A stretch of DNA of 42,242 bases from Methanomicrobiales archaeon (GTDB taxonomy: Archaea > Halobacteriota > Methanomicrobia > Methanomicrobiales > Methanospirillaceae), in NCBI GenBank assembly GCA_026394765.1, contig JAPKXQ010000088.1, positions 1 to 42,242 on the forward strand. The letters are read 5' to 3'. Positions 35,600 through 41,004 of this stretch are shown here, one piece after another. The translations under genes were made by a program, and so were the position numbers. The notes beneath the pieces were generated by a model. That model ran no database searches. It saw only the letters and a program-made list of their open reading frames with translations, and was not told the origin of the DNA. Position 1 is the stretch's first letter. The number at the start of each line of letters is the position of its first letter.

Positions 35600-37756
35600 C
35601 TAGAGAAGCTTGATAGACCCGCTCCCCGGGGCCATCGACTCGCCACCGTTATGCAGGATCTCTAGAACCCCTTCTATATCTTCGCGGGAGAACCCCTTCT
35701 GCTCAAGGCTTGCAATGACATCATCAGTCCTCGCATAGCCGTTCTCGTCAGCTCGGCTGCGAATGGTCTCCTTGACACTCCTGATGAGGTCGCGCCGCCC
35801 TTTTGAGATGCCGGTAGCAACCTTGTCGATATCATAGGACTGTGATCGCACGTCGTATGCCACCTGGCGAAGGCATGCGTCAACGATGTGGATAACCCTT
35901 GATGCGTCCTCTTTTGTGATATCAGGCGAGAGCCTTACCCGTGCGCTCGCCTCGGCGAGGCGGACTAATGCTTCCAGCTGCCGGGCGGTTACGGGCACCG
36001 GCTTGCTGCTGTCTGCAAGACCGCGGAGGCGGAGATAGTAACTCGTGAGGCCATCTTTGGCCTCGGCTGATAGCATGGGAAAACAGGTCCTCTTTGCGTA
36101 TGCAACGTACTTCCGAAAGATCTGCGGGTCAATTTCAGGAGTGACAGGTTTGAGCTGCTGGGTGATGTACTCCTCGTTCACCCCCGGGATCGGGTCTTTG
36201 GTATGGCGCGCCACGAGCTCCCCGATGCTGTGTGCCTTGAGGATATGGTCGGCGATGGCGGCGTCACGTTTCTGGTCGGGCCGGTCGGTCATAATGAATA
36301 TTAAGTCAAATCGTGAGAGGAGCGAGGGGGGCATGTTGATCTGCTCCCCGATGGGGGCAAAGTCGTCAAAGCGGCCGTACTTGGGATTTGCTGCGCCGAG
36401 GAGGGCACACCTTGATTTGAGTGTTGCAGTTATCCCGGCCTTGGCAACGCTGATGGACTGCTGTTCCATTGCCTCATGGAGAGCGGCACGGTCATCCTTA
36501 TGCATCTTGTCCATCTCGTCGACCGCTGCCACCCCCATGTCGGCAAGGACGAGTGCCCCGGCTTCAAGGGTCCACCTGCCATCGCCAAACTCGTCTTTCA
36601 CTGCAGTCGCTGTGAGCCCGGCAGAGGTGGACGACTGCCCGCTCGTGTAGATCGCCCGTGGTGAGAGCTTAACCACATAGCGGAGGAGCTGGCTCTTGGC
36701 TATCCCGGGATCTCCGATCAAGAGGACATGGATGTCTCCTCTGAGATGGCTCCCGTCAGGCATCTCCTTCATGATCCCCCCGAAGAGCTGGAGGGCTATC
36801 GCCTCTTTGACATCTTCGTTTCCGAAGATTGTGGGGGCTATTGAGTGGACGATCTTCCGGTAGACCTCAGGGTCGCGGGAGAGAGAGAGGATCTCTTCCT
36901 CGTCTTTCTCTAATATCTCTACCTCTTCAAACTCCTTCTCTCCGATCTCTATGGAGTTACACTCAAGGTGGATGTCGAAGATGGTGCTCTTCTCCCCATG
37001 GCTGATACGCTGGACCGATCGTAAGATCCCGTTTATCACCACTCGGTCCCCCGGAGTTACGACCCCAGTCAAGTCGTCGGTCACATCGACATCCAGGGTC
37101 TGGGGCTGTTCCCCACCACGGAGCCCCTCTGGGGACTCCTGGATCCTGATCTTTTGGGAGTCAGTGAACCGGGAGCGTTTAGGTACGAGGTCGAGCTTTC
37201 TGTGGGTGCACCCCTCTACTCCGCACACCTCAGGCTCCTTAAACCTCCCATATCCCTGGTCGCGTTCGGTGAAGTGGCCTGCAGGGCAGCGAAAGACCGC
37301 GGTGACGATCCTGGGGCGGACCTCGGTGGTCTTTCTCAAAATGCCGTCCACTGATACGAACCGGTTGATATGGTCTGACCTGATCTGCCGGATCGCGACC
37401 TTGCGGGGGAGGTTGATGAACCTGATGTTGATTGTCTTTGCTGACTGGCCCTCCTTCAGCTTCACCAGCTGGTGGTTCCTGATTGCCTCCTGGGCGTCCT
37501 CAATCACCTTCCCTGGGTTTTCCAGTAGTTTGTCGGCGATACGGAGGCCAGCTTTCCCAAAGCTCTCCAGATCCTTGTAGTCGATCGGCAAAGACCGCCT
37601 GAAAGGGAACTCGCGGGCCAGATCAGAGAGCTGACGCTTGCACCGCGTCCGCAAGAACCGGCTCCAGTCCGCATCGGCGCTTGTCACCTCTCCAGCCTGG
37701 TCTTCCAGACCAGGGTTGCCTCCTGCCCCTTCCCGGTTCCCCACAGTCACGCTCAC
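35600..37756 (-). CDS. mcm: MCM replicative DNA helicase
   Basis: 718 residues, the usual archaeal length, with no intein. Domains: the N-terminal part with a zinc-binding region ([13 protein letters not shown]...[13 protein letters not shown], about 155-187), the AAA+ core with Walker [12 protein letters not shown] (about 345), Walker [11 protein letters not shown] (about 410), the arginine-finger SRFDLIF (about 482), and a C-terminal winged helix. It unwinds the replication fork as a hexamer. The start is GTG 37756, overlapping the TGA of rfcS (GTGA), so replication clamp loader and helicase are coupled in translation. The replication origin is not recognised nearby. Confidence 0.97.
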
Positions 37757-38724
37757 TTCATACTACGGTCTGCAGTGAGGACAAACCGAGCGATCAACGC
37801 CTCCATCTGGATGTCGGTGTCAGCCCCCTCAGAGAGGCGGAAGTCGGTCTCCCCCAGGTGGTCAATGAGGGCCACCTTGAGGGCCGGGTCCATCTCACGG
37901 TTCACCAGGGCGCGAAAGATCTGGGTTATCAACTCGTCCGGGGCGATCCCCCGCTGATGAAGCAGGTTATCGAGCACGGTGAGCGAGCCTTCGAAGTCTC
38001 CGGATGTGGTCACATCTAATAGCTCGCTGATCTCCTCAGGTCGTGCTGAGGCGGTGATGGCATAGATCATCCCTGCTTCGATTGTGGAGTTGAGGATCGC
38101 TGCTCCCTGGAGGGCGTTGATGGCTTTACGCATGTCCCCCTGTGCGATATAGACGATAGCTCCCAGTGCTTCAGAAGAGATCGAGAGCCCCTCGCGCTCA
38201 GCTATCCGGCGCATCTCTTCTTCCACCGCCGCCGCACCCAGGGGTCGGAAGCGGTAGATGGCACACCGGCTCTGGATGGGATCTATTATCTTGGATGAAT
38301 AGTTGCAGGAGAGGATGAACCGGCAGGTCTGTGCATAGCTCTCCATCGTGCGCCGCAGTGCTGCCTGGGCATCAGTAGTGAGGGCATCGGCCTCGTCCAG
38401 AAAGAGGACCTTGAATGTAACGTCTCCGAAAGGTGAAGTCCTCGCGAACTGTTTTATCTGGTTCCTAACGACATCGATGCCGCGCTCGTCTGATGCATTG
38501 AGCTCGCGAAAGTTCGAGTGCCATGTTGCACCAAAGAACTCCCTGGCTAGGGCAACAGCTGCAGTGGTCTTTCCCACCCCCGCAGACCCGGTGAAGAGCA
38601 GGTGCGGGAGGCTCCCGGTCTTCACATAGGACATGAGACGCTCTATGATCTCATCCTGGCCTACGATTGCCGAGAGCGTTACAGGGCGGTATTTCTCGAT
38701 CCAGATCGCATGATCGTCTTCCAT
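37753..38724 (-). CDS. rfcS: Replication factor C small subunit
   Basis: 323 residues, starting [26 protein letters not shown]. Walker A is [12 protein letters not shown] (about residue 45), the Walker B is intact ([11 protein letters not shown], about 110), the SRC motif is SRCAIYRF (about 155), and the [12 protein letters not shown]-type helix is present ([13 protein letters not shown]). It is the ATPase of the clamp loader that opens the PCNA ring. ATG 38724 is chosen because GGAGG lies about five bases upstream; an in-frame ATG at 38766 and a start at 38781 are less likely. The second, divergent copy is at 26301-27332. Confidence 0.95.
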
Positions 38725-38781
38725 CAGGGCCTCCGGGGAGCGCAGATTTGGGATCTGTATGCTCATCCCGCATGATATCAT

Positions 38782-39132: not shown

Positions 39133-41004
39133 ATGATCCTGTCGTCATTGTTAAGAGGACGAAACTCTCTCTGGAATGCCGCCATCATCGGCTCGGCAGT
39201 TGCAGCCATCCTCATAAACCTCATCGGACTCCTCGTGGGGATCATCTCTGTCCTTCCCCACCTCCTCTATATCCCTGTTGTACTTGTAGCATACCGGTAT
39301 CCCAGGCAGGGACTCATCTATTCAGGGATCCTTGGGGGAATATATCTCCTCCTCGTCCTTTTTTTACTAAGTTCCTCCCTGGTGATCATTGGAGAGACGC
39401 TTGTCCGCGTCACTGTGATGGTTATCATCGGGGGCTTACTCGCATTTCTCACCCTTAGGTTGCATGAGCAGGAGTCCCTCTATATGGGCCTGTTCGATCA
39501 CTCTGAAGCAGGGACCATCCTTGTCAGAATTAAGGAAGATGGAAATTTTATTGAAGAAGTTAATGAAACGGCTGCCGGGTTACTCCAGATAACGCCCGAA
39601 GACCTAAGAGGTACTTCACTGAGCTCGTTCTGGAACAGGCAGGAAGAGGGTCTCATCTTTACCCGTCTTGCCAGTGAGGGTGTGGTGCATGCATCAGGTG
39701 CGGTCTTTTCCACCCCGGACGAGGATTTTAGGGATGTCCTCGTCTCTCTTGCCCCCCTTCCTGATCACAGGGCGGTTCTCACGTTTGTGGACATCACCTC
39801 CCGCGTAGCTGCCGAGCGGGCGCTTCAGGCGGCGAATGAGAAGCTCAACCTCCTCTCTCGTATCTCTGCAGACCGCCTGCACGGGTCGGTTGATGCGATA
39901 ATTGAGACTGTTGATGAAGCCTCTGCCTATGGCCCTGACTCTAGGATATTAGAGATTCTGGAGCGGATACGAACTCTTGCCTGGGACCTCGCCAGGCAGA
40001 TCTTCCTCACTGAGGCTTACCATGACCTTGGTTCCTCACCACCGGGCTGGATCCGCCTCCAGCAGGTCCTTCTCTCTTCAGGGCCCCTCCAGAACATAGG
40101 GGATATCTCTCTGCGTATCTGGGTCGAACGCCTTGAGGTGTATGCCGACCCTCTCATCGGTGATGTACTCATTCACCTTGTTGAGAACGCGGTCAGGCAC
40201 GGGGGCACAGTGAAGAATATCGTCGTGTCCTGTCACCATGCCGTGGAAGGGCTCGACCTCATAATAGAAGATGATGGTGTGGGGATCCAAAAAGACCGGA
40301 AAGAGATGATATTTGAATATGACGCAGGAGGTACTGCAGGACTTGGCCTCTTCATATGCCGCCAGATCCTCGCGGTGACTGGTATTTCCATCACAGAGAC
40401 CGGGAGAGAGGGACAAGGTACACGCTTTGTCATCCATATTCCGGAGGATAACTACCGCACCGCGGGGTCCAGTGAGGATGCGCCACCAGTCCCGATTCCC
40501 CGGACCGAGGGGGAAGGAAGAGTGCGGGGGGTCCCGCACAGGTCCGGGACACTTGTTCGGGAGCTCACTGCTCTGGAATTTCCTATCGCCGAGGAACTCT
40601 GGGTCGATTACCATGAGACGAAAGGAGACCCGGCGATCGATCGTATCTTTACGGCTTTTTTAGATGGTGCTGCGGTATCACTTGCACGCTGCCGTCGCCA
40701 CCCGGATGGTCTTGAGGTGGACGCCGTCTTTACTCCCGTGAACTACCGTGGACATGGCTATGCGGACGGTGCAGTCAGAGGCCTTGTTGAGGCCTGTGGC
40801 TGGGAAGCCCTTTACATGCATTCGGTACGCAACCTCACCGGTTTTTATGGCAATTACGGGTTTGTACCCATTGACGAGAAGGAGCTCCCACCCACAATCC
40901 GCGAGCGGTATGCATGGGCTGGAGGACAGATGGAAGGGGCTAATGTATGTCCAATGAAGAGAGAGGTCACCCCTGGGATAGATCCGCATCCGCTTCCTCG
41001 ATAG
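39133..41004 (+). CDS. Membrane PAS-histidine-kinase-like protein fused to a GNAT acetyltransferase domain
   Basis: 623 residues. About four membrane helices (residues 14-110) are followed by a PAS-like domain (about 120-225, FVDITSRVAAERAL ending), a helical DHp-like stretch (about 239-290), and an HK-type ATPase domain with N-box HLVENAVRHGG (about 346), G1 DDGVGI (380), G2 GTAGLGLFICRQI (400) and GQGTRFVIHIP (426). After a Pro/Ser-rich linker (about 436-470) a GNAT fold follows, with RGHGYADGAV as the acetyl-CoA pyrophosphate loop (about 538) and LTGFYGNYGFVP near 568. In the DHp helix the expected phospho-acceptor position reads ISADRLHG instead of the usual xRHD, so no His is in place. 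GGAGGAGG lies seven bases before ATG 39133. The fusion and the missing His suggest it does not act as a standard two-component kinase. Confidence 0.82.
   Translation: MILSSLLRGRNSLWNAAIIGSAVAAILINLIGLLVGIISVLPHLLYIPVVLVAYRYPRQGLIYSGILGGIYLLLVLFLLSSSLVIIGETLVRVTVMVIIGGLLAFLTLRLHEQESLYMGLFDHSEAGTILVRIKEDGNFIEEVNETAAGLLQITPEDLRGTSLSSFWNRQEEGLIFTRLASEGVVHASGAVFSTPDEDFRDVLVSLAPLPDHRAVLTFVDITSRVAAERALQAANEKLNLLSRISADRLHGSVDAIIETVDEASAYGPDSRILEILERIRTLAWDLARQIFLTEAYHDLGSSPPGWIRLQQVLLSSGPLQNIGDISLRIWVERLEVYADPLIGDVLIHLVENAVRHGGTVKNIVVSCHHAVEGLDLIIEDDGVGIQKDRKEMIFEYDAGGTAGLGLFICRQILAVTGISITETGREGQGTRFVIHIPEDNYRTAGSSEDAPPVPIPRTEGEGRVRGVPHRSGTLVRELTALEFPIAEELWVDYHETKGDPAIDRIFTAFLDGAAVSLARCRRHPDGLEVDAVFTPVNYRGHGYADGAVRGLVEACGWEALYMHSVRNLTGFYGNYGFVPIDEKELPPTIRERYAWAGGQMEGANVCPMKREVTPGIDPHPLPR

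Follow-up and report, generated by a model that had tools for sequence, protein, structure and literature searches.

A membrane-bound, kinase-like protein lacking the acceptor histidine and carrying a predicted GNAT acetyltransferase domain in Methanomicrobiales

The window, a contig of 42,242 nucleotides, belongs to a single MAG (1.83 Mb, 78.8% complete) of the archaeal order Methanomicrobiales and encodes a protein in which a histidine-kinase-like module lacking the acceptor histidine is fused to a C-terminal domain assigned to the GNAT acetyltransferases. On balance, we lean towards reading this protein as a membrane-bound, signal-gated acetyltransferase, whose kinase module would act as an ATP-binding conformational input and not as a phosphodonor. 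This reading draws on features evident in the sequences, namely the domain order, the missing acceptor, the ATP and putative acetyl-CoA motifs, the repeated coupling of one kinase clade to a single GNAT family, and deacetylase linkage at other GNAT loci; from these we infer nucleotide switching, the direction of control, the substrate, and the reversal of the reaction.

Domain architecture and the C-terminal acetyltransferase domain

The open reading frame begins with ATG, and in chain order its product comprises four membrane helices, a PAS domain, a DHp-like helix pair, a HATPase_c domain, and the GNAT domain. The features of the gene are as follows:

39133..41004, + strand: fusion gene TM4-PAS-DHp(no acceptor His)-HATPase_c-GNAT, 623 aa
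39160..39480, + strand: N-terminal membrane region with four predicted helices (residues 10-116; AlphaFold2 secondary structure; conserved PHLLYIPVV motif)
39493..39807, + strand: PAS domain (residues 121-225; Pfam PAS_9, E = 1.9e-6, match spanning residues 129-222; PAS_4, 9.9e-6)
39796..40023, + strand: DHp-like helical hairpin (residues 222-297; model helices 222-265 and 272-297; alignment with RHD-type kinases)
39871..39876, + strand: Asp247-Arg248, with Asp at the acceptor position and Arg next to it (Asp-His in orthologues; ungapped alignment with ITRHDL-type methanogen kinases)
40159..40449, + strand: HATPase_c domain with N, G1, and G2 boxes intact (residues 343-439; Pfam E = 2e-16; N-box Asn352; G1 Asp380, Gly382, and Gly384; G2 Gly403 and Gly405)
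40552..40962, + strand: predicted GNAT domain of an order-restricted family (residues 474-610)
40714..40716, + strand: Glu528 (Glu or Asp in 16 of 16 aligned family members)
40747..40764, + strand: GNAT motif A, R-G-H-G-Y-A (R/Q-x-x-G-x-G/A), residues R539-A544, putative acetyl-CoA pyrophosphate loop (R539 and G542 invariant in the aligned relatives)
40846..40848, + strand: Tyr572, candidate general acid of a Y-x-x-x-G-F motif (invariant in the aligned relatives)

The preliminary description had proposed a membrane kinase-like protein with intact nucleotide-binding boxes, and the HATPase_c match, with every tested ATP-site residue in place, agrees with it. HisKA was not matched by the window protein in the Pfam search. 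The AlphaFold2 model of the whole protein (mean pLDDT 81.8) contains the four N-terminal helices, a PAS fold, two long helices, the HATPase, and a C-terminal alpha/beta domain. In Foldseek searches its core grouped with PAS-histidine kinase structures, which were the best matches, and also with DivL (4q20) and NifL (9qq6).

The C-terminal domain of the window protein scored below the curated Pfam cut-off for Acetyltransf_1 (E = 0.017; 15.8 vs 20.7 bits), but a stand-alone copy encoded in the same genome (L056), which is 53% identical, exceeded the GNAT cut-off (E = 3e-9, 37.6 bits). Modeled alone with AlphaFold2, the domain reached a pLDDT of 89.8, and its best PDB fold match was human GCN5 (5trm, E = 1.5e-7), followed by E. 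coli ElaA, Naa50, and N-acetylglutamate synthase. Since relatives pass the Pfam cut-offs, the fold matches GCN5, and motif A and Tyr572 are kept, the acetyltransferase fold proposed earlier for the end of the chain stands, and acetyl-CoA binding and transfer are predicted. Judging by its spacing from motif A, Glu528 occupies what we take to be the position of the catalytic Glu of GCN5/PCAF.

The acceptor position and the GNAT-linked kinase-like clade

The stretch ISADRL, noted earlier where the acceptor His should be, covers residues 244-249, and the aligned acceptor position within it is Asp247, so the acceptor is indeed absent. Among 49 orthologues, position 247 is Asp in 46, Glu in two, and Gly in one, while position 248 is His in 47, Tyr in one (L046), and Arg in one, the last being the window protein; the related L097 adds a second Tyr at 248. 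The fusion family thus reads DH where kinases read HD, and the window copy is devoid of that His too. Overall, the acceptor is non-His in 50 of 50 members of the fusion clade. As for a His elsewhere in the DHp helix, which had been named as a finding that would count against the missing acceptor, 47 of the 49 orthologues have one in His248, while the window protein has Arg there and retains His250, which varies in the family (His in 37, Gln in nine, Asn in three). A register shifted by an indel, which would bring His248 to the acceptor position, was rejected because the gap-free spacing to the upstream KLNLLS and to the downstream hydrophobic positions is identical. L063, placed as sister to the fusions in the tree, reads RDD, and the acceptor was therefore probably replaced before His248 arose. 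The likely order of change, as read from the alignment, is acceptor His to Asp first and then Asp to His at +1, which makes His248 likely a new residue and not a moved acceptor.

It is nevertheless conceivable that the core is still a kinase whose acceptor has moved, to His248 in the family and to some other residue in the window copy, so that phosphorylation and not nucleotide binding would gate the GNAT domain. The conservation of Asp247-His248 in most orthologues and the intact ATP site agree with this, as does a complete H-box together with an ATP site in 8 of 99 GNAT-linked relatives. However, neither the Arg of the window protein nor the Tyr of L046 and L097 fits such a role, the ungapped flanks put His248 at +1, which is normally the position of the acid, and the RDD of L063 makes this His look like a later change. 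We regard a displaced acceptor as unlikely.

Arg248 itself could be a sequencing or assembly error, or the private change of one lineage, with the window copy being a normal DH member. The two readings are separated by a single A/G transition (CAC to CGC), and the sequence comes from one MAG of 79% completeness, the sole genome of its genus; the presence of Tyr at 248 in two independent relatives, however, makes this explanation improbable. The acceptor position is Asp either way, so the lack of the canonical acceptor does not depend on Arg248.

The 99 GNAT-linked kinase-like proteins formed one clade relative to 48-49 other kinases (SH-aLRT 99) in trees that were quick searches, the linkage being read from loci chosen by their GNAT matches. 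The acceptor His is missing in 81 of them, and 79 of these 81 keep the N-box Asn, the G1 Asp, and the G1/G2 Gly residues tested. Five others retain RHD together with the loss of the N-box Asn and G1 Asp, and five carry RHG. Apparently complete kinases account for 8/99 GNAT-linked proteins vs 37/48 other kinases in the same loci, a control group in which five REC-HKs upstream of fused genes are counted. Since the rows are related, Fisher p values overstate the significance of this difference, and better evidence comes from repeated changes on the tree: at least seven His/non-His changes and 18 letter changes within the GNAT-linked clade. The fused and separate states require five changes on the tree, and fusion therefore probably arose repeatedly. 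In a further control comprising the genome of the window and two complete genomes (G068 and G111), the His is retained by almost every other kinase whose site could be read.

Simple decay of the kinase part, leaving it without a role, would account for the wide variation of acceptor residues in the clade and for the loss of N-box or G1 residues in some relatives (L064, L065, L072, L074, L119, and L117). It is hard to reconcile, however, with the ATP-site residues that all 50 type I fusions retain, with a full-length open reading frame in about 49 genomes, and with the many DHp and HATPase columns that are more than 90% conserved among the fusion orthologues; we consider decay highly improbable.

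Type II relatives are found directly behind REC-HK genes whose products have a canonical box of the TRHDL type (L064, L065, L067, L072, L074, L099, L101, L108, and L109). This arrangement, along with DivL among the structural matches of the model, could mean that the pseudo-kinase core serves for docking: it would sense whether a response regulator or the neighboring REC-HK is phosphorylated, much as DivL reads DivK~P, and relay this state to the GNAT domain. Type I fusions, that of the window included, are without a recurrent REC neighbor, though, and we find such a role quite unlikely. The intact ATP site in proteins devoid of the acceptor is what we would expect if the core is a nucleotide-binding input.

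Distribution, gene neighborhoods, and deacetylase linkage

The fusion is present at full length in about 49 of the 108 genomes of the host family, representing 11 of its 17 genera, and once in another family (L097). The preliminary description had suggested looking for the same fusion elsewhere, and its full-length occurrence in some 48 further genomes of that family and in one of another family means that it is not an assembly artefact. The GNAT family was found in 142 of the 199 genomes of the order Methanomicrobiales, and none of the matches listed from a 295-genome sample of the phylum (E <= 1e-12) fell outside the order. Three arrangements were seen: the GNAT may be joined to a kinase-like protein in one chain, it may stand alone and be encoded behind such a protein, or it may be part of a fusion with tandem Usp domains, whose gene often likewise lies behind that of a kinase-like protein. 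Where HK and GNAT are separate genes, the two frequently share a few bases (L063, L072, and L074).

Proteins in which this GNAT family forms the C-terminus after two Usp domains are encoded at L098:3931-5160, L100:3846-5081, L069:3323-4651, L070:4820-6130, and L076:4295-5638; no description of this architecture was found. In L103, L134, and L136 the GNAT proteins are about 340-380 aa long, and the GNAT domain is preceded by a different N-terminal domain that has no family assignment. These genes follow kinase genes whose products read RHG in place of RHD, and additional kinase genes lie upstream.

The genes next to type I fusions vary by genus and include those for the PolD small subunit, NreA with polymerase IV, an adenosine-specific kinase, and a SpoIIE phosphatase. 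No recurrent response-regulator partner was found for these fusions, and conserved synteny with the replication genes of the window (RfcS and MCM) was not found in other genomes. Replication or repair genes are often near the fusion (L041, L042, L046, L094, and L095; window 35600-38781; L091:10288-11724), but the set (NreA and DNA polymerase IV, PolD small subunit, or RfcS and MCM in the window) differs per group and its presence is possibly a coincidence. In six genomes the opposite strand carries a gene for a Cache-HAMP-SpoIIE (PP2C-type) phosphatase near the fusion (L043:7228-9369; L045, L052, L084, L088, and L096). A PF04008 adenosine-specific-kinase gene adjoins the fusion on the same strand at L078:8847-9344, L044:6956-7459, L080, L086, L088, and L096, and could bear on nucleotide sensing.

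Of 105 distinct GNAT loci, a convenience sample, 11 have a gene of the HDAC/AcuC family (PF00850) no more than 3 kb away, as compared with about 0.5 expected from a simple density estimate assuming one to two PF00850 copies per genome. These linked loci include opposite-strand neighbors in genus g11, and among the 105 loci no PF00850 gene was found beside any locus of the window's fusion type. PF00850 was present in 35 of 41 genomes of the order, including that of the window, where it is located elsewhere than at the fusion. A Sir2 deacetylase (PF02146) was rejected as a partner, being found in none of the 41 genomes. In L128:2812-8784 and L129:2662-8595, a one-strand run of five genes comprises a REC-HK, an acceptor-less HK (RTDL), a GNAT, a Hydantoinase_A, and an HDAC-family protein. 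L113:1365-9667 (genome G108) has a similar run, in which the HK gene and the HDAC gene are both broken up by long ORFs of the opposite strand (577 and 388 aa) resembling insertion elements.

The substrate might be a small molecule, such as a polyamine or an amino acid, and not a protein. N-acetylglutamate synthase is among the fold matches, the position of the PF00850 genes of L113, L128, and L129 behind a Hydantoinase_A gene would suit acetyl-amine metabolism, and the order is without Sir2 in the genomes searched. On the other side, the top fold matches, GCN5 and Naa50, are protein acetyltransferases, and the fusion to a sensory module resembles protein-acetylating type III GNATs; a small-molecule substrate therefore appears rather unlikely to us.

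Proposed mechanism and relation to known systems

In the signal-gated acetyltransferase that we favor, the membrane region and the PAS domain would sense a signal. The DHp/HATPase_c core would dimerize and bind ATP or ADP, presumably without the usual autophosphorylation because the acceptor His is absent. Its conformation, set by the signal and the nucleotide, could then open or close the GNAT domain, which would acetylate a partner, probably at a protein lysine, and the AcuC-like deacetylase of the genome would probably reverse the acetylation. That the same GNAT is also found in fusions with tandem Usp domains, likewise a module of sensory type, was counted in favor of signal gating. Since eight GNAT-linked proteins look complete, phosphorylation may still matter in some. 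The preliminary description had envisaged a sensor that controls acetylation of a partner; the comparisons support its sensor module, intact nucleotide site, missing acceptor, and acetyltransferase output, while the ATP switch and the partner-protein target remain suppositions.

More tentatively, and as something possible rather than probable, we propose a Methanomicrobiales-specific system in which sensor kinases have turned into nucleotide-binding, phosphotransfer-dead switches acting in cis or in trans on a dedicated GNAT family, as an acetylation counterpart of two-component signaling with an HDAC-family off-switch. The acceptor His was lost repeatedly in this clade, the ATP site was kept, and fusion and gene order tie it to one acetyltransferase family. 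That the same pairing recurs across the whole order suggests that sensed signals lead to acetylation instead of phosphorylation. Many archaeal two-component proteins are without a known output, and the GNAT-tied clade offers a direct, testable one. Since versions that are complete, that lack the acceptor, or that have a broken ATP site are all found next to this GNAT, the clade is natural material for studying the histidine-kinase fold without phosphotransfer. No description of a kinase-GNAT fusion was found in the open-access literature, and a census of archaeal two-component systems (PMC5847659) makes no mention of acetyltransferases or GNAT.

Several known systems share parts of this architecture, while none of them (type III GNATs, NifL, DivL, RdmS/MsmS, and AcuB) has a GNAT domain together with a kinase-like transmitter. 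Type III bacterial GNATs are protein acetyltransferases gated by N-terminal ligand domains (cAMP, NADP, ACT) (PMC8556138), and, like the window protein, they unite in a single chain a sensory or regulatory domain at the N-terminus and a GNAT at the C-terminus. The input of the window protein, a membrane region, PAS, and pseudo-histidine-kinase transmitter, is not among the regulatory domains described there, and ligand control is putative here.

The GHKL domain of NifL from Azotobacter vinelandii binds ATP/ADP without hydrolysis (PMC9866876). With its PAS domains, H-domain, and GHKL domain, NifL controls a partner; the order in the window protein is similar, nucleotide binding is predicted, and the NifL structure was among the model's matches. 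Unlike the window protein, NifL keeps the conserved His, has no enzyme fusion, and acts on NifA. In DivL of Caulobacter, Tyr takes the place of the acceptor and ATP binding is weak (PMC4211667). DivL likewise has a histidine-kinase fold with a replaced acceptor and matches the window model, whereas the window protein has Asp/Arg instead of Tyr, intact ATP-site residues, and a predicted enzymatic output in cis. The kinases RdmS/MsmS (MA_type 2) of Methanosarcina acetivorans are also methanogen kinase-like proteins without an H-box, and RdmS binds and hydrolyzes ATP and has no autokinase activity (PMC11784639); no GNAT has been described on them, and that paper does not mention acetyltransferase.

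Adenine-nucleotide control of protein acetylation is known from Bacillus, in which AcuA and AcuC work with the nucleotide sensor AcuB (PMC13121692). AcuB differs in being a CBS/ACT protein that acts in trans and controls the deacetylase, and the fusion type of the window is not beside a deacetylase gene. The pairing of a GNAT with an HDAC-family deacetylase is nevertheless common to both systems, and GNAT-deacetylase linkage recurs among the relatives of the window protein.
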